Of a DNA stretch of 51,526 nt, positions 8,645-43,946 are shown piece after piece. The translations under genes and the position numbers were made by a program. Under the pieces are notes generated by a model. That model saw nothing but the letters and a program-made list of their open reading frames with translations. It was not told the DNA's origin and searched no databases. This DNA is from Nitrospira sp. SB0662_bin_26 (GTDB lineage Bacteria; Nitrospirota; Nitrospiria; Nitrospirales; UBA8639). Location: positions 1-51,526 of the forward strand of contig VXOF01000107.1 in the NCBI GenBank assembly GCA_009840285.1, written 5' to 3'. How positions within the stretch are numbered: the stretch's first letter is position 1; each line of letters starts with the position of its first letter.

Positions 8645-10381
8645 TCATGAAAGGTCGCGTTTGGAAATATCCAAATCATCCAACCAGCGATAGAACGTGG
8701 CGCGACTGATGCCGAGCAGTTGAGCGGCTTTGGCTCGATTCCCGTTGGCCTTTTGCAGGGCGTCCAAGAGACGTTCCCGGTCCTTGACGGACGTGGTCGG
8801 TTTTGAGACGGGACTCACGGGTTCGGCTGATTCGAGCAATTCCGGAGGAAAATGCCGGGGTTGGATGGTGTCCCCTTCGCATTGGAGCACGGCATATTCA
8901 ATCACACTTTTCAATTCGCGAATGTTCCCCGGCCATGGATACCGGGTCAGGTGACCCACGGCATCGGCGCTGATATCTTGTACAAACAGTTTCTCCATCG
9001 CCTGGCGGCATTGGCCGACGAACGCCCAAATCAACAAGGGAAGATCCTCCTGGCGTTCACGGAGCGGAGGCAAGTGAATGCGTCCCACTCGAATGCGGTA
9101 CAGCAGGTCAGCCCGGAAGGTACGTTGGTCTACCTGTTCCTGTAAGTCGTGATGCGTGGCGCAGATAATGCGGACGTCCACTTTTCTCGGTTGGGATTCA
9201 CCCAGCCGGGTAATTTCTTTTTCCTGGAGCACCCTGAGCAGACTCGTTTGGACGGGCGCCGGCATATCGCCGATTTCGTCCAGGAAAATCGTCCCTCCTT
9301 GAGCGGATTCAAAAAATCCACGGTGGTCGCTGTTGGCTCCGGTAAACGCGCCTTTCTTGTGGCCGAACAATTGACTGCCCAGCAGGGATTCCGTGAGGCC
9401 GGCACAATTTACCGCCAGGAAGGGCTTGTCCTTTCGCGGGCTGGAATTGTGCAGGGCCCGGGCCACGAGTTCTTTTCCTGTTCCGGTTTCACCTTCGATG
9501 ATGACCGTCGACTCGACCTGGGCGAGGTTGCGAATCTGCCGGTACACGTCCTGCATGGGTTGGCACTTTCCGATGAGATCGTGAAATGAGGACTTGTCCT
9601 CCAGTTGTTTGCGGAGGGTGTTAATCTCCGTGACGTCATAGAGAAAGAACATTTTCGACCGAGCGTCACGCGGGTCATCGTGGATGTCGATCTCCAACGA
9701 ACGAGCGGCGTGGCCCGGCGGCTTGAAATGGACGATAAATTTTTCCCGTTCGTGCTGCTGCATAAGCTGTTCCAGACCATGGACGTCATGGTCGGGGAAC
9801 CCAACGGCTTTCTGCCAGGGTTGGTCTTCAGGAATGGGTTCGTTTTTCCCCAATAATCGAAGAGCGGACACGCTCATATGCAGAATCCGGCCTTTGGGGT
9901 CGATCAAAATCGTCCCGATGTGCAGTTGATTCAGGATGGAATGGAGATCTTCCGCGCTTTTCCGGAGCCGGGAATTCGCGGTTTCCAATTCGGCCTGGAT
10001 CCGTTTCCTCTCGACGGCGTAGTCAATGGCTCGAAGAAGGACGTGCCCGTCCACCTCGCCTTTGAGCAGATAATCCTGCGCGCCTTCTCGAACGGCCTGG
10101 ATGGCCGTTTCCCGGTCGTTCAGGCCGGTCAGGAGGACTTGCGGGAGTGAGGGATAGCCTTCCGCGAGTTTACGAAACGTTTCCAACCCGTGACTGTCGG
10201 GCAAGGAAAGGTCGACCAGAGCGAGGTCCACGCGGTTGGCTTGCAAACACTCATACGCCTTCCGGAAGGATTCGGCGGTGATGATGGTGAAGGTACGCCC
10301 TTGTATGTCGCGAAAGAGTTCCCGGATCAAGCGGGCATCGCCGGGATTGTCTTCCACCAGGAGAATGGTCGTCGTGTTCAT
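8645..10381 (-). CDS. Sigma-54-dependent response regulator (receiver-PAS-AAA+-Fis)
   Basis: A 578-residue NtrC-class activator. The receiver spans residues 1-125 (LLVEDNPGD, Asp in [10 protein letters not shown]), with a PAS-like domain at about 150-265. The AAA+ domain at about 280-505 has Walker A GETGTGKE (about 300), the sigma-54 contact loop GAFTGA (about 346), Walker [12 protein letters not shown] and arginine fingers in [10 protein letters not shown] Fis-type helix-turn-helix sits at about 540-575 ([20 protein letters not shown]). It remodels sigma-54 polymerase after phosphorylation, presumably by the kinase encoded just upstream. ATG 10381 is chosen because the receiver begins there. 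A TTG at 10420 overlaps the kinase stop (TTGA) and would add 13 residues encoded largely by a palindromic repeat; it cannot be excluded. Confidence 0.92.
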
Positions 10382-10383
10382 GT

Positions 10384-10406
10384 GCCTGCCCTGAGCTTGT
10401 CGAAGG
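10384..10406. repeat. Short palindromic-family repeat between kinase and activator genes
   Basis: The sequence GCCCTGAGCTTGTCGAAGG belongs to the CCTGAGC...GTCGAAGG family that also occurs at 21511, 21739, 31541 and 41150. Here it sits between the kinase stop and the activator ATG and has displaced any strong ribosome binding site. A TTG-initiated reading would translate it (LRQAQGRH). Confidence 0.65.
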
Positions 10407-10416
10407 GTCCGGTCCT

Positions 10417-20107: not shown

Positions 20108-21130
20108 ATGAGACGGTTCGCATTCGCAAACGTGACAAGCCGGTTTTGCGGTAACAGAATCGTATTCCTGTGTTCCTTTTTCCTGGCGATCAGCATTGGC
20201 AGTTCAAACCAAAGTTGGGCGGCATCCGAGTCGATGGTGGACCCCGCTTGGAAGGACTACAGGCAAGTGAGCGGGGTGTCCGGGAACTTGAACAGCATCG
20301 GGTCCGACACCCTCAACAATCTCATGACCCTGTGGGCCGAAGGGTTCAGAAGAGAATATCCCAACGTGAAAATTCAAATCGAGGGGAAAGGCTCCAGCAC
20401 GGCACCCCCGGCTCTGATTGAAGGGACGGCTCAGGTAGGTCCGATGTCCAGGCAGATGAAAGCGAAGGAGATGGACAAGTTCGAGGCGAAATTCGGTTAT
20501 AAAGCCACCAGTGTTCCGGTTGCCGTCGACGCGTTGGCCGTGTACGTCAACAAAGACAATCCCGTGAAATGCATGAGCATGGAAGAAGTGGATGCCGCCT
20601 TTTCAAAAACCCGGCGCCGCGGGCATGCCGTGGACATTGACGCGTGGGGGAAGGCCGGGCTCGACGGCAACTGGAAACGCACGAGGGTCAGCCTGTACGG
20701 TCGGAATTCAGCCTCGGGGACCTATGGGTATTTTAAGAAAAAGGTGTTGAAGAAAGGCGACTATAAGGATGAAGTCAAGGAGCAACCGGGCTCGGCTTCC
20801 GTGGTGCAGGGCGTGACGGAAGATCGCGGTGGTCTCGGGTACAGCGGCATCGGATATCGGACTTCGGGTGTCCGCGCGATTCCGTTGTCGGCCAAGAGCG
20901 GCGCAGGGTGCTTTGACCCGACCTTTGCCAATTCCTCGGCCGGCAAGTACCCGTTGGCCCGTTTTCTCTACCTGTACGTAAATAAGGCTCCGGGAAAACC
21001 GTTGCCTCCGTTGGTCGAAGAATTCCTGAAATACGTCTACAGCAAGGCGGGGCAGAAAATCGTGATCAAGGACGGCTATTTCCCCTTGCCGCAGACTGTC
21101 ATCACCAAAATATTGGGCGACATGCAATAA
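20108..21130 (+). CDS. pstS: Periplasmic phosphate-binding protein
   Basis: A 340-residue exported protein with a signal sequence (about residues 1-39, with cleavage near SWAA). Phosphate-ligand segments are visible: SIGSDTLNNLM, the loop EGKGSSTAPPALIEGTAQVGPMSR, and GRNSASGTYGYF where Arg, Ser and Gly-Thr cradle phosphate. It lacks a lipobox and so is free in the periplasm. It belongs to the group found in phosphate-scavenging ABC systems with long PstC/PstA. It is the first gene after the Pho-box array and ends 3 bp before pstC. AGAAGGAGGG gives a strong ribosome binding site before ATG 20108. Confidence 0.93.
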   Translation: MRRFAFANVTSRFCGNRIVFLCSFFLAISIGSSNQSWAASESMVDPAWKDYRQVSGVSGNLNSIGSDTLNNLMTLWAEGFRREYPNVKIQIEGKGSSTAPPALIEGTAQVGPMSRQMKAKEMDKFEAKFGYKATSVPVAVDALAVYVNKDNPVKCMSMEEVDAAFSKTRRRGHAVDIDAWGKAGLDGNWKRTRVSLYGRNSASGTYGYFKKKVLKKGDYKDEVKEQPGSASVVQGVTEDRGGLGYSGIGYRTSGVRAIPLSAKSGAGCFDPTFANSSAGKYPLARFLYLYVNKAPGKPLPPLVEEFLKYVYSKAGQKIVIKDGYFPLPQTVITKILGDMQ

Positions 21131-21133
21131 GTC

Positions 21134-23515
21134 ATGAACCAGGCTGACCTCTCAGCGAATCAGATTGAAACGGCGTCTCCGCCCGCGCCGGTATCGCGGG
21201 TGTCCTCACGGGCGTGGCGGCGTTGGGTGGATTCGAGCGCGCGCGTCGTGATCACCTTTGGAGGCTGGGCGACCATTGTCAGCATCTTTGGAATTTTTGC
21301 CTACTTGTTCATCGAAGTGGCTCCCTTGTTTGACGCCGCTTCATGGACTGAATCCGCTTCCGTACACGTTGCCCCGGTCGATGCAGCCGAGCCGGAAACC
21401 ATTGCCGTGGGGATCGATGAATATATGGAAGTGGGGTACGTGCTCCGAAAGAGTGACATTGCGTTCTATGCGTTGCCTGCGGGGACTCCTGTACCTCTCG
21501 ACCCGTCGGTCCTGAGCGGAGCGGAGCGAAGTCGAAGGATGCCGGATTTCGAAGACGGGGAAATTGCCGCTCTGGCCCGATCTCCGGGTAAAACCCATAC
21601 CTATGGTTTAGGGACGAAGACCGGCCGGGTCATTCCCTTTTATGTGTCGTTTCGAGTCACGTTCGACGATGACGTTCGAAACGTCGAACCGGTGGTGTCT
21701 TCGGGCGAGCCGTTTGAGGCCGTGCCGACGCCTGTCGGTCCTGAGCCCTTCGACTACGCTCAGGACAGGCATAGTGGAGCGAAGTCGAAGGATGCCCACA
21801 TTGCGCGACTGGCCTACCGGGAGACGGACAGCGGACCCATCGCCGCGGCCTTGACCGGGTCGGGACGATTATTTCTCACGAAGATGCAGGAATCGGAAGC
21901 AGGCGGGCTGTTTGCGCTCGAAACGGAAACGGAACTTCTCCAGGTCGAGGTCATTGATGAAGGCGTGGCGGCGCTTTCGGTGCTGCTGTTGGACGACTTG
22001 GGAGAAACCCTGTTGGGTGGCACGAAAGACGGCAGGTTGTTGTATTGGGATATTCAGGATATCCGGAACCCCAGATTGATGGGAATGTATTCCGCGGGGA
22101 CAGCCATCACCGCCCTGTCCTATCTGATCGGGGATCGGTCCATCGTGGTCGGCACGGAAAGAGGGACGGTCAGCGTCTGGATGCCCGTGATCGATCCTGA
22201 CGTCGGAGGCGATCCGCGTCTTCAAAAAATTCGTGACTTCGCCTCGCATGATGGGGCCGTGACTGCCATTTCCCCTTCCCTTCGGGATAAAGGCTTTCTC
22301 ACGACCGGCGCCTCCGGCGGGGTTGCCGTTCACCATTCGACCTCCGGCCAGACGCTTATCCAAATCCCGGGGAACGGTGCCGCCATCCGGGCGGCGATGT
22401 TTGCACCGAAAACCGACGGCGCTGTGGTGCTTGATGACTCGGGACGGCTGATCGCCTATGACATAGAGAACGAGCATCCCGAATCCACGTTCTCGTCTTT
22501 GTTCTTTCCCGTACTCTATGAAGGGTACGAAGAGCCTCACCATATCTGGCAATCGACAGGCGGATCCGACGCGTTCGAGCCGAAATTCGGCCTCTGGCCG
22601 ATCATGTTCGGCACGGTGAAAGGGACGATCTACGCGATGTTACTGGCGACACCGCTTGCCGTGCTGGGTGCGATCTATACCGCGATGTTCATGCGTCCCA
22701 ACATTCGAGCCGTGGTCAAGCCGGTCGTAGAGACAATGGCGGCGTTCCCCACGGTTGTCCTGGGGTTCCTGGCCGGGTTGTGGTTTGCGCCGTTATTGGA
22801 ACAAATCTTTCCTGCCGTGGTGGCCATGTTTCTCCTGCTTCCCTTGGCCGTGGCGTTGGTCTGCATCGGTTGGCAATTCCTGCCTTCACGCCTTAAGGGC
22901 CAGTCGGGGAACGTGACGGAGTTGGTCGCGTTCGTGCTGGTCCTTGTGGGCACGGTGTGGTTCTGCCTCCAGTTGAATCACCAGATCGAAACCTGGCTCT
23001 TCGATTCAGACTATAAGGGATGGTTACAATCCTCGTTCGGGTTGGCGTATGACCAGCGGAACGCCTTGGTCATCGCCTTTGCCATGGGTATGGCCGTGAT
23101 TCCCACCATTTTCAGTATCAGCGAGGATTCATTGAGCAACGTGCCGCCCCACCTGATCGCCGGGTCCTTGGCCTTGGGGGCCACTCCGTGGCAGACCCTG
23201 ACGAAGTTGGTCATCATTTCTGCGAGCCCGGGAGTGTTTTCCGCTCTCATGATCGGCCTGGGGCGGGTCGTGGGAGAAACCATGATCGTGCTGATGGCGA
23301 CCGGTAACACCCCGGTGATGGACATGAATCTCTTCAACGGATTCCGAACTTTATCGGCGAACATTGCCGTGGAAATGCCCGAGGCCCCGCACGGAGGCAC
23401 ACTGTATCGGTTGCTGTTCCTGGCCGGCCTCCTCCTGTTCGTGTTTACGTCCATCGTGAACACCCTGGCCGAAATTGTTCGGCAGCGGCTTCGGGCGCGC
23501 TACAGTCAATTCTAA
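21134..23515 (+). CDS. pstC: Phosphate ABC permease PstC, long form with periplasmic propeller-like domain
   Basis: A 793-residue protein, more than twice the E. coli length. TM1 is at about 41-63. A periplasmic region of about 420 residues has repeated beta-strand motifs (GRLLYWDIQD, GTVSVWMPVID, GGVAVHHSTSG, GRLIAYDIE) that look like beta-propeller blades. From about 485 the permease core follows (FGTVKGTIYAMLLATPLAVLGAIYTAMF, coupling loop LALGATPWQTLTKLVI, GRVVGETMIVLMATG). Long PstC forms are known in Pseudomonas and relatives. Two palindromic DNA elements are translated within the periplasmic region (about residues 127-137 and 202-221), which adds to the length. It is coupled to pstS (3 bp) and pstA (9 bp). 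Confidence 0.92.
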   Translation: MNQADLSANQIETASPPAPVSRVSSRAWRRWVDSSARVVITFGGWATIVSIFGIFAYLFIEVAPLFDAASWTESASVHVAPVDAAEPETIAVGIDEYMEVGYVLRKSDIAFYALPAGTPVPLDPSVLSGAERSRRMPDFEDGEIAALARSPGKTHTYGLGTKTGRVIPFYVSFRVTFDDDVRNVEPVVSSGEPFEAVPTPVGPEPFDYAQDRHSGAKSKDAHIARLAYRETDSGPIAAALTGSGRLFLTKMQESEAGGLFALETETELLQVEVIDEGVAALSVLLLDDLGETLLGGTKDGRLLYWDIQDIRNPRLMGMYSAGTAITALSYLIGDRSIVVGTERGTVSVWMPVIDPDVGGDPRLQKIRDFASHDGAVTAISPSLRDKGFLTTGASGGVAVHHSTSGQTLIQIPGNGAAIRAAMFAPKTDGAVVLDDSGRLIAYDIENEHPESTFSSLFFPVLYEGYEEPHHIWQSTGGSDAFEPKFGLWPIMFGTVKGTIYAMLLATPLAVLGAIYTAMFMRPNIRAVVKPVVETMAAFPTVVLGFLAGLWFAPLLEQIFPAVVAMFLLLPLAVALVCIGWQFLPSRLKGQSGNVTELVAFVLVLVGTVWFCLQLNHQIETWLFDSDYKGWLQSSFGLAYDQRNALVIAFAMGMAVIPTIFSISEDSLSNVPPHLIAGSLALGATPWQTLTKLVIISASPGVFSALMIGLGRVVGETMIVLMATGNTPVMDMNLFNGFRTLSANIAVEMPEAPHGGTLYRLLFLAGLLLFVFTSIVNTLAEIVRQRLRARYSQF
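21511..21543. repeat. Palindromic-family element 1 inside pstC
   Basis: CCTGAGCGGAGCGG followed by AGCGAAGTCGAAGGATGCC. It is translated as SGAERSRRMP. It shares an identical 21-nt tract (21523-21543) with element 2 (21776-21796). The offset of 253 bp is not a multiple of three, so the copies are read in different frames. The repeat therefore arose at DNA level, not by protein-domain duplication. Confidence 0.75.
21739..21796. repeat. Palindromic element 2 inside pstC
   Basis: A composite palindrome: GTCCTGAG (about 21738-21745) pairs with CTCAGGAC (about 21758-21765), and CTTCGACT pairs with AGTCGAAG further out. It is read in frame as EPFDYAQDRHSGAKSKDA without a stop. Fragments of the same element are at 10384, 31541 and 41150. 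Insertion into a surface loop of the periplasmic domain appears tolerated. Confidence 0.75.
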
Positions 23516-23524
23516 AGGGAATCC

Positions 23525-25159
23525 ATGCCTGACAGGATCAAGAAATTTCTCGACTCGGGGGCGTTGTTCATCTGGTTTTGCGGCACCGCGGTGGCCGCCT
23601 CGCTGCTCATGGTCGGCGGCGTCCTCCTCCTGATCATGATCAACGGCCTCGGGTTTTTCTGGCCGCATGCGTTGGTGGAAATGACGCTTTCAGACGGCAC
23701 GCGTGTGCTAGGAGAACTGAAAAGCGAAGAGGTCATCCCCTATTCGGAGACGCCGGAGTTTCCCAAAGGGAAAACCCGGGTCAGGCTGAAAGTCGGGAAT
23801 CGTGACCTCTACGGCCTGGACTTCAGGTGGGTGGATACCGACCGGATCGCGTCGGCGGACTCCCCGAAAGACGCGGTTGCGTTTGAACGGAGGGAATGGG
23901 GCAATTTTTACGGCCGGATTCGTGAGGTCTCGCGCGGCGAAGACATCGTCGCCACGGGCAATCAGGAAGGATGGCAGGCGTTACAGCCGCTGATCGGGCG
24001 GGCCAATGACCTGCATGAGGAGATCGAACACCTACAACGAGACGTCATCGGTGATATCAACTATGAAATCGAAGGAACCCGTTTGAGGATCCGGGAACTT
24101 GAATTACACGGTCGAAGTCAGACCCCGGAAGTTACCGAGCTTCAGGCCGCGACCAAGCAGTTGGAAAGCCGTTACCACAAGCACGTTGAGACCCTTCGGG
24201 CCTTGAGCCGTCAACTCGACGAGTATTCCGTGGTGCTTGTCGAGACTAACGGCAGTGAGAAACGTCTTGCGGTCGGTCAAATTGTGAAAGCGCTTCGTCC
24301 CAATGATATGAGCCTCATCGAAAAGATTCTCAGATACTTCATCAATTTCTGGTCCGTGCTGAGCGAGGAACCACGGGAAGCGAATACCGAGGGGGGCATT
24401 TTCCCGGCGATCTTCGGCACGGTCATGATGGTGTTGATCATGAGCGTGGCTGTGGTTCCGTTCGGCGTCCTGGCCGCGTTTTACCTGCGGGAGTACGCGC
24501 GGCAAGGGCTGATCGTTCGCGTGATCCGCATTGCCGTCAACAACCTGGCCGGCGTGCCGTCGATTGTGTTCGGGGTTTTCGGGTTGGGATTCTTCGTCTA
24601 CGCGGTGGGCGGGACCATTGACAACCTGTTCTATCCGGAAGCCTTGCCCACGCCGACGTTCGGCACAGGCGGCATTCTTTGGGCGTCGTTCACCTTGGCC
24701 CTGCTCACGGTGCCGGTCGTGATTGTTTCCACGGAGGAAGGGCTGTCCGCCGTGCCCCAGGAATACCGGGAAGGGTCCCTGGCGTTGGGTGCGACCAAGT
24801 TTGAAAGCATGCTGCGAGTGATTCTGCCCAGTGCCTTGCCGGGCATTTTGACGGGGTTGATCCTGGCAGTGGCCCGTGCCACGGGTGAGGTGGCTCCCTT
24901 GATGTTGACAGGGGTGGTCAAATTGGCGCCGGCCCTGCCCTTGGACCACCATTTCCCGTTTCTGCACTTTGAACGGAAATTCATGCACCTGGGCTTCCAC
25001 ATCTTCGACGTGGGCTTTCAGTCGCCCAACGTGGAAGCAGCGAAACCGATGGTCTACGTCACCACCCTGATCCTGGTGATGGTGGTCATTGGTTTGAATC
25101 TCAGCGCCGTGGCCCTCCGCAATTACATGCAGAAAAAGTTCAAGGCATCGGCGGTGTAA
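23525..25159 (+). CDS. pstA: Phosphate ABC permease PstA, long form with periplasmic coiled coil
   Basis: A 544-residue protein. TM1 is at about 15-42. A periplasmic domain of about 240 residues has a beta-rich part ([22 protein letters not shown], repeated in part as the related [15 protein letters not shown]) and a long coiled coil (about residues 160-235, [19 protein letters not shown] and following). The permease core starts near 290 ([21 protein letters not shown]), with EAA-type loop [23 protein letters not shown] and [12 protein letters not shown]. Ordinary PstA proteins are about 290 residues; long forms occur with long PstC, so the two extensions probably form one periplasmic assembly. 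The ATG at 23525 follows pstC by 9 bp. Confidence 0.92.
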
Positions 25160-31399: not shown

Positions 31400-31727
31400 C
31401 TTTTTCAGATCTGGTTCGGGTAGCGCAACCCAATCTGCTCCTTCCTCTACCTCCCGACTTTTCCCTCTTCGGGAAAAGTCCCCGTCCTTACAAAGGAGGG
31501 GAAACTGGGAAGAATGGCTGTCTTTTTCCTCCCCTTCGCCTGCCCTGAGCCTGTCGAAGGGTAAGGGGAGGGAAGGGTGAGGTAGAGCCACGAATGCAAA
31601 AAGAGAGAACAGAGGCGCCGTGAGTACCCGCACAATCGCAATATGCTCATAACAGTCCTGTTGGAGTACCTGCCTATCCTGTTAAAATGAAGCGGAATGG
31701 AGTGCAACCGCAGGTATAGGTGACACG
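31400..31727. repeat. Intergenic repeat cluster before ppx
   Basis: 328 bp without a gene. A perfect 10-bp hairpin GACTTTTCCC/GGGAAAAGTC (31456-31465 with 31471-31480) and a CCTTACAAAGGAGGGG segment are shared with the cluster at 38330-38445 (in the other orientation). A CCTGCCCTGAGCCTGTCGAAGGG element is at 31540-31562. Such composites are typical mobile palindromic debris; no open frame with coding character was found. Confidence 0.6.
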
Positions 31728-38329: not shown

Positions 38330-38445
38330 CAAGGGGAACACGGATTCTGCTCTTGAACCCCCCTCTTCGCCTATGGGGAGAGGGGGCCTCCCATTCTTTC
38401 CCCTCCTTTGTAAGGAGGGGCGAAGGGGAGGTAGAGGAAGGGGCA
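38330..38445. repeat. Intergenic palindromic repeat cluster before purC
   Basis: Two hairpins stand side by side: CCCCCTCTTCGCC...GGGGAGAGGGGG (about 38360-38387) and CCCCTCCTTTGTAAGGAGGGG (38400-38420), then GGGGAGGTAGAGGAAG. The last part is the inverse of the segment at 31441-31500. No gene is present in the 285 bp between the DUF3422 gene and purC. Confidence 0.6.
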
Positions 38446-41119: not shown

Positions 41120-41182
41120 ACACCCTCTCCAAGGCGGGAGAGAGCCTGCCTTGAGCTTTTCGAAGGGGCTGGGGTGAGGGGG
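41120..41182. repeat. Composite repeat between cytochrome and ggt genes
   Basis: ACCCTCTCC...GGGAGAG is followed by GCCTGCCTTGAGCTTTTCGAAGG and GGGGCTGGGGTGAGGGGGA. It combines two repeat families found separately at 19806 and at 10384/31541, as if one element had inserted into another. Confidence 0.6.
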
Positions 41183-43082: not shown

Positions 43083-43946
43083 ATGCCTTCAGCCTTCTTA
43101 CGAATATTAAATATCCACTGTATTGGTCTACAACACATGGTCGTCTCACTAGTGCTGGCGCTTGCGCTGGTCGGCGTCCAGAATGCGGGAGCGCAGACGT
43201 TTGATGACGCCAAGGCTGCCTATAAACGTGGCGACTATGCCATCGCCTTGGAGTCATTCCGCAATCTTGCGGAGCTGGGCGACACCCGTGCCCAGTTCGC
43301 TCTCGGGTCCATGTATGCCGAAGGAAAAGGTGTGCTGCAGGACGAGGCGGAGGCCGTGCGCTGGTATCGTCGGGCCGGGGAGGAGGGCTTAGTCGGCGTC
43401 CAGTTGTTGCTCGGGACCATGTATGACTCCGGAGAAGGTGTGCCGCAGGATTATGCCGAGGCTGCACGCTGGTATCGTCTAGCCGCGGAGCAAGGTGATG
43501 CCCGTGCCCAAGTCAATCTCGGGTACATGTACTCCCAAGGCAGGGGCGTGTCGCAGGACTACGCCGAGGCGGTGGGTTGGTTTCGCCAGGCGGCGGAGCA
43601 GGGCAACGCCAAAGGCCAGACCAGGCTCGGGATCATGTACGAGCAGGGCTATGGTGTGCCTCGGGATTACACCGAGGCGCGACGCTGGTATCATCTGGCG
43701 GCCGCACAGGGCAATGCCTTCGCTCAGGCCAGTCTCGGGTTCATGCACTATCTCGGTAAAGGCGTTTCGAAAGACTACGTTCAGGCGCACAAGTGGTTCA
43801 GTCTGGCGATTTCCCGGTTTTCGAGTTCTGAGCGGGACTCGCAGGACAGGGCCGTGCAATTTCTCGAGAAGGTTGCGTCGAACATGACTCCGGAACAGAT
43901 CGCCGAGGCGGAACGGCTGGCTAGCGAATGGCAACCGGCCCAGTAA
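43083..43946 (+). CDS. Secreted Sel1-repeat protein
   Basis: A 287-residue protein with an N-terminal signal segment (about 19-38, MVVSLVLALALVGVQNAGA) and then about six Sel1-type TPR repeats of 36 residues, each with a variant of AQxxLGxMYxxGxGVxxDYxEAxxWYRxAAEQG. The last, KWFSLAISRF, precedes a short helical cap. Sel1 arrays are protein-binding superhelices; here exported, so likely in the periplasm. ATG 43083 is chosen for GGAGAAAG upstream; the longer frame from 42984 begins in the ggt promoter region. ATG 43137 is a second option. Adjacent repeat units are closely similar, suggesting recent internal duplication. Confidence 0.85.
   Translation: MPSAFLRILNIHCIGLQHMVVSLVLALALVGVQNAGAQTFDDAKAAYKRGDYAIALESFRNLAELGDTRAQFALGSMYAEGKGVLQDEAEAVRWYRRAGEEGLVGVQLLLGTMYDSGEGVPQDYAEAARWYRLAAEQGDARAQVNLGYMYSQGRGVSQDYAEAVGWFRQAAEQGNAKGQTRLGIMYEQGYGVPRDYTEARRWYHLAAAQGNAFAQASLGFMHYLGKGVSKDYVQAHKWFSLAISRFSSSERDSQDRAVQFLEKVASNMTPEQIAEAERLASEWQPAQ

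Follow-up and report, generated by a model that had tools for sequence, protein, structure and literature searches.

A probably mobile repeat with a 24-nt core lengthens pstC and other genes in frame in a Nitrospirales genus

RESULTS

The pstC locus

The window, i.e., the whole stretch of 51,526 nt that was analyzed, is contig C96 of a 113-contig, 2.2-Mb genome (G000; completeness, 98.8%). Those close relatives of G000 that bear names are metagenome-assembled Nitrospirales. The features around the two insertions are as follows; the names of the neighboring genes come from reading their translations.

20108-21130: pstS, 5' neighbor of pstC
21134-23515, + strand: pstC, a single 793-codon open reading frame (ORF) hosting both insertions
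~21503-21543, + strand: site 1, short element CCGTCGGTCCTGAGC...GTCGAAGGATGCC, net gain of 11 codons relative to empty relatives, read as LDPSVLSGAERSRRMP
~21734-21796, + strand: site 2, long element, net gain of 20 codons by codon alignment, read as VGPEPFDYAQDRHSGAKSKDA
21747-21770, + strand: 24-nt unit CCTTCGACTACGCTCAGGACAGGC, nested in the site 2 element, coding for PFDYAQDR
23525-25159: pstA, 3' neighbor of pstC

The pstC product has a Pfam BPD_transp_1 match and weak WD40-type matches, which identify it as a predicted phosphate ABC transporter permease; a beta-propeller-like domain separates its first transmembrane helix from the later ones. In the shared part of the gene, dN/dS equals 0.12 to 0.20 for five pairs, and the gene is therefore under purifying selection. 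A structure model built on ten aligned sequences has a mean pLDDT of only 53 and is trusted for the propeller part, where values are mostly 70 to 88. Both inserts map between strands of the modeled propeller, in inter-strand loops, and the pLDDT falls below 50 in part of site 1 (residues 130 to 135) and most of site 2 (200 to 217).

A sequence-only reading of this DNA had reported two copies sharing an identical 21-nt tract, 253 bp apart and read in different frames, within pstC. Both observations are exact. The window contains two occurrences of the 20-mer GAGCGAAGTCGAAGGATGCC (21524-21543 and 21777-21796) at a distance of 253 nt, and the identical tract reaches 21 nt once the preceding G is counted. 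With up to three mismatches allowed, the 20-mer had zero matches across 100 shuffles. The tract is translated as ERSRRMP at site 1 and as SGAKSKDA at site 2.

Empty and filled pstC alleles

PstC was compared in a codon alignment of 16 proteins, three from the family and 13 from the genus; the fourteenth genus genome, G002, was added afterwards. Gaps appear where the sequence-only reading had predicted them, with empty and filled alleles among the 14 genomes. Site 1 is filled in four (G000, G004, G011, and G008) and site 2 in three (the long form in G000, the short form in G003 and G013). The remaining genus genomes have a short, empty loop at these sites, apart from G002, which carries a tandem repeat unrelated to the element at site 2. 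The gain in filled alleles, always in frame, is 11 or 19 codons for site 1 and 12 or 20 codons for site 2. Insertion at the DNA level into pstC is thus supported by empty and filled orthologues.

The short and long forms differ by exactly 24 nt, namely CCTTCGACTACGCTCAGGACAGGC, both at site 1 (G008/G011) and at site 2 (G000/G003). This nested piece is the reverse complement of a free-standing unit, GCCTGTCCTGAGCGNAGTCGAAGG. The short form is similar to composite copies elsewhere in G000 (contigs C7, C37, and C69), and its 5' part, GTCGGTCCTGAGC, recurs in composites of other genus genomes. The insertion reading is thereby extended beyond the earlier one, to a nested 24-nt copy at site 2 and to the other genes described below. 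In G007, pstC has a third insertion site, occupied in frame by a different palindromic repeat, read as PPLGDFLPFPLGEGLGEG (L044).

The compared genomes appear to be nearly all metagenome assemblies, in which repeats can be mis-assembled, and the inserts could in principle be assembly or binning artefacts. Yet the junctions recur unchanged in assemblies with separate names (JAJEJG, JAHRAK, JAPPLK, VYFB, and JAJDZI records) and differing contig-naming schemes, and every pstC insert keeps the frame. An artefact is extremely improbable.

Abundance and settings of the 24-nt unit

The 24-nt core unit (CCTTCGACTNCGCTCAGGACAGGC / GCCTGTCCTGAGCGNAGTCGAAGG) also stands alone, scattered in G000. The sequence-only reading had pointed to a wider repeat family, and the unit proved abundant elsewhere in this genome: 29 matches to a pattern with a 4-nt spacer and 22 to one with a 3-nt spacer, 51 altogether, against 0 for reversed controls. 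A looser pattern gave 62 matches in G000 (control, 2), 54 to 100 each in G001, G003, G004, G005, G008, G011, and G012, 12 to 29 each in G006, G010, and G013, and four each in G002, G007, and G009, three genomes among the most diverged of the genus. A stricter pattern matched once or more in 203 of the 395 phylum genomes; amplification is patchy, with a maximum of 138 in G177. A 65-nt composite had zero matches in the plasmid collection.

The unit was seen in several settings: alone, in a composite of ~40 nt, in the loop of another palindromic family, and inside its own copies. The three further copies reported near 10384, 31541, and 41150 do exist outside the longer ORFs of the window, the first two as a 23-nt version and the third in degenerate form:

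10385-10407, + strand: 23-nt (3-nt-spacer) relative CCTGCCCTGAGCTTGTCGAAGGG, outside the longer ORFs
31539-31561, + strand: 23-nt relative lying within the loop of a CCTCCCCTT...AAGGGGAGG palindrome, intergenic
41144-41168, + strand: degenerate unit copy GCCTGCCTTGAGCTTTTCGAAGGGG, intergenic

Other features of the window and phylum were recorded alongside these copies. The 23-nt copy in the region 10379-10407 begins 4 nt upstream of a start codon, that of a response-regulator/sigma-54 activator gene on the minus strand, and its AGGGCAGG occupies the expected position of the ribosome-binding site. Two inverted copies of the CCCCTCCTTTGTAAGGAGGGG-type palindrome, a repeat of the kind that hosts the nested 24-mer elsewhere, are present at 31481-31504 and 38397-38420. 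A tandem array with a period of 108 nt, whose copies are 66 to 71% alike, spans 43269-43700. In G177, from a different Nitrospirota family, a related sequence, ATCCTGAGCCTGTCGAAGGAT, forms inverted doublets of ~72 nt (L305-L334; 138 genome matches).

The 24-nt unit alone folds no better than its shuffles, whereas the long composite does fold well (z-score, -2.4). Stems of at least 7 bp flank 4 of the 31 complete units in G000, compared to a shuffled mean of 0.6. Hairpin loops may therefore be favored as targets, which is a tendency at best and no requirement. Hairpin-loop targeting as a strict rule was rejected, given that only 4 of 31 units lie in stems and that the unit in HflX sits in plain coding sequence.

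Stepwise growth of other genes

In-gene surveys covered G000 (51 matches) and G001 (30 of 92 matches). Since ORF-based in-gene calls in G000 are too loose, genes with copies were kept only on orthologue support. Eight of the 51 G000 matches fall in six genes with orthologues: three in pstC and the others in five genes that appear to encode an AmiC-like amidase, a nitroreductase-like (SagB-type) protein, HflX, a TrpD-like glycosyltransferase, and an MltD-like transglycosylase. The MltD and TrpD2 cases are weaker, with copies in variable linkers.

A difference of exactly 24 nt was found in six orthologue comparisons from four genes, with no target duplication beyond an ambiguity of 1 to 2 bases:

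pstC: site 1, G008/G011; site 2, G000/G003
AmiC-like: G000/G001
Nitroreductase-like: G000/G004 and again G001/G013
HflX: G005/G006 (read off the compared sequences)

In these steps the 24 nt entered the loop of a hairpin, plain coding sequence, or a 24-mer already in place. In the AmiC-like gene, the insert is absent from G013, G012, and G004. G001 has an in-frame palindrome, CCTCCCCTTACAAAGGGGAGG, and G000 has this palindrome with 24 nt in its loop; the compared stretch otherwise differs at one base. The nitroreductase-like gene is without the palindrome in G009 to G012, carries the palindrome in G004 and G008, and carries the palindrome plus 24 nt in G000 and G013. In G001 it contains a triple nest, in which a palindrome (CCCCTCC...GGAGGGG) holds a 24-mer that holds a further 24-mer, while G005 and G003 have other partial or altered forms.

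In HflX, the unit is absent from G006, G007, and G009, and G005 carries the 24-nt unit, read as ACPERSRR, in plain coding sequence without a pre-existing palindrome. Forms similar to that of G005 are found in G004, G003, G010, and G012, and in G013 and G008 shorter remnants are left. The unit of G000 and G001 holds an additional 48 nt, and that of G011 holds a different nested piece.

The direction of the 24-nt step is clearer from the AmiC-like, nitroreductase-like, and HflX series than from pstC, where the step may be a deletion in the short form. Composite elements may also be copied whole, so that nested copies need not each be separate insertions.

Additional occurrences were read in G001 from this genome by itself. 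An APS-kinase/CysN fusion and a large Calx-beta adhesin (L292 and L294) contain eight-residue units in tandem, two or three in number; a Csm6-like protein contains a single unit.

Reading frames and translated peptides

Five of the six frames of the 24-nt unit are without a stop. As 24 nt equal eight codons, insertion lengthens a protein without a frameshift. Most sampled copies lie outside proven genes; in pstC and at least three other genes the copies are in frame and the frame is open. The 24-nt form makes up 7 of the 8 in-gene copies and 22 of the 43 others (one-sided p = 0.06). This weak enrichment in genes is suggestive only, because not all of the other 43 have been shown to lie outside genes.

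Four frames are used in genes, giving PSTTLRTG/PSTSLRAG, PFDYAQDR, ACPERSRR, and PVLSGVEG. This use of different frames argues that the peptide itself is not selected and that the DNA is what spreads. It would be very improbable for the inserts to be adaptive modules selected for their amino acid sequence: although inserts are retained at the same sites in several species, the different frames yield unrelated peptides, the pstC inserts are absent from most species and lie in low-confidence loops, and site 2 of G002 is taken up by an unrelated tandem repeat.

History of the pstC alleles

In the pstC gene tree, G000 with G004 and G008 with G011 form separate, well-supported clades, and the nearest relatives of these clades, G005 and G001, are empty. 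Both site 1 junctions are nevertheless common to the two filled clades. Near site 1 the clades are unexpectedly alike (top 0.3 to 2.7% of windows, depending on their size). In the vicinity of site 2, G000 resembles G003/G013 more than it does G004, its sister (top 0.4 to 1.4% of windows). From this signal, which comes from short windows in one gene, we infer that homologous recombination carried short tracts of insert-bearing pstC alleles from one species to another. Alternatively, the shared site 1 junctions may reflect recurrent insertion at the same place.

DISCUSSION

Mobility and possible mechanisms

The presence and absence of the unit among genomes suggest that it moves. In this Nitrospirales genus, a very small dispersed repeat with a 24-nt core is probably mobile or was so until recently, lengthening proteins in a frame-neutral manner. 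We tentatively propose, as a plausible reading that falls short of probable, that the 24-nt DNA is the mobile unit itself, inserting with no target duplication and no Y1 transposase and stacking inside its own copies. Insertion of the repeat would use a single-stranded target, either a hairpin or a replication fork, and would proceed through some enzyme or through template switching, with another copy as the template; these two routes are proposed because a Y1 transposase was not found. Copies landing in surface loops or linkers would survive because they do little harm.

Transposases were sought with the Pfam Y1_Tnp profile in 59 relatives and 20 unit-carrying genomes of the phylum. G000, four copy-rich relatives (G001, G003, G004, and G005), and the closed, single-contig G010 gave no match, and five of the 14 genus genomes gave weak matches. 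Other genera of the phylum commonly have Y1 genes. None of 41 Y1 loci from phylum relatives carries the 24-nt unit in the flanking DNA examined. The RAYT-type transposase raised in the sequence-only reading was therefore found neither in G000 nor beside the unit in these 41 loci.

These data bear on a conventional REP/REPIN family, moved in trans by a RAYT (Y1 HUH) transposase that is now lost or missing from the assemblies; copies within genes would then be REP insertions of the ordinary sort. Such a family would fit the REPIN-like inverted doublets of ~72 nt that the related sequence forms in G177, a member of a different Nitrospirota lineage, as well as the abundance of Y1 genes in other genera. 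It would also fit the insertions without target duplication, which are expected of HUH enzymes. It is unlikely, however, in view of the Y1_Tnp results for G000, G001, G003, G004, G005, and G010 and for the 41 loci; moreover, the unit has no strong internal hairpin, and no regular inverted doublets are seen among the G000 copies listed.

Replication slippage or template switching at existing palindromes could also give rise to nested copies, with other copies as templates and no mobile element involved. Many nested copies do lie at palindrome loops or unit centers, the junctions are ambiguous by 1 to 2 nt, and there is no target duplication. Against this, the inserted piece stays at 24 nt in six comparisons from four genes, and the HflX unit entered plain coding sequence with no earlier palindrome. 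This origin is possible, though we consider it rather doubtful as an explanation of the series. For the 24-nt insertion itself, an enzyme-driven and a template-switch model are both plausible.

Most protein indels have no visible cause, and here several steps survive among relatives. Because these relatives preserve the empty gene, the palindrome, the palindrome with a 24-mer, and the 24-mer within a 24-mer, protein growth through repeat DNA can be traced base by base in conserved genes. The unit is a tractable case for how repeats of ~20 nt move without a known transposase. If it is indeed the mobile unit, it would be among the smallest known and would act as a frame-neutral module for protein lengthening.

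Comparison with known repeat systems

The small dispersed repeats (SDRs) of cyanobacteria, described by Elhai et al. in 2008, are reportedly 21 to 27 nt long, dispersed in many copies, and nested in other repeats and in themselves. They are not known to have a transposase. Set against these traits, the Nitrospirales units are similar in being 24 or 23 nt long and dispersed (51 G000 matches to two patterns) and in nesting within other repeats and within themselves. They differ in belonging to another phylum and in that several copies are in frame in genes. SDR work is cited in passages of PMC3116915, and the term also appears in PMC2884548. With the REPIN/RAYT system, as presented in parts of PMC3116915, the likeness lies in the inverted doublets of the related sequence in Nitrospirota genome G177, whereas the Nitrospirales element is without a RAYT in the loci examined.

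Rickettsia palindromic elements (RPEs), according to passages of PMC10969869, are palindromic, ~150 bp long, and found inside genes. They lie in frame in genes and also between genes, and their translated peptides are tolerated (passages of PMC10969869; PMC3733652, section 15). The likeness to RPEs drawn by the sequence-only reading holds for the mode of action, as the Nitrospirales element is also found in frame within genes and between genes. It does not extend to membership: RPEs have ~150 bp and a conserved peptide, while the Nitrospirales element has 24 to 65 nt, is self-nested, is read in several frames, and belongs to another phylum.

According to Di Nocera et al. (2013, PMC3733652), intragenic GTAG/CGTC REPs occur in several species, sometimes twice per gene; REPs that sit within palindromes are described as well, and so are CGTC REPs that lack a dedicated transposase. 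They share with the Nitrospirales element short in-gene repeats, two copies in one gene, and nesting in other palindromes. The main text of PMC3733652 contains neither Nitrospira nor any of four core strings of the unit, and the parts of it consulted show no series of orthologues that differ stepwise by an exact, frame-neutral 24 nt.

In the open-licence literature, no paper was found with the core strings GAGCTTGTCGAAG / CTTCGACAAGCTC and none on Nitrospira palindromic repeats; for CCTGAGC with TCGAAGG, the papers among the matches listed appear unrelated by title. A description of the 24-nt Nitrospirales family was thus not found in this literature. The element works like Rickettsia palindromic elements, intragenic REPs, and cyanobacterial SDRs, and we claim membership in none of them. 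The in-frame, self-nesting 24-nt repeat of Nitrospirales is a new form of a known kind of element.
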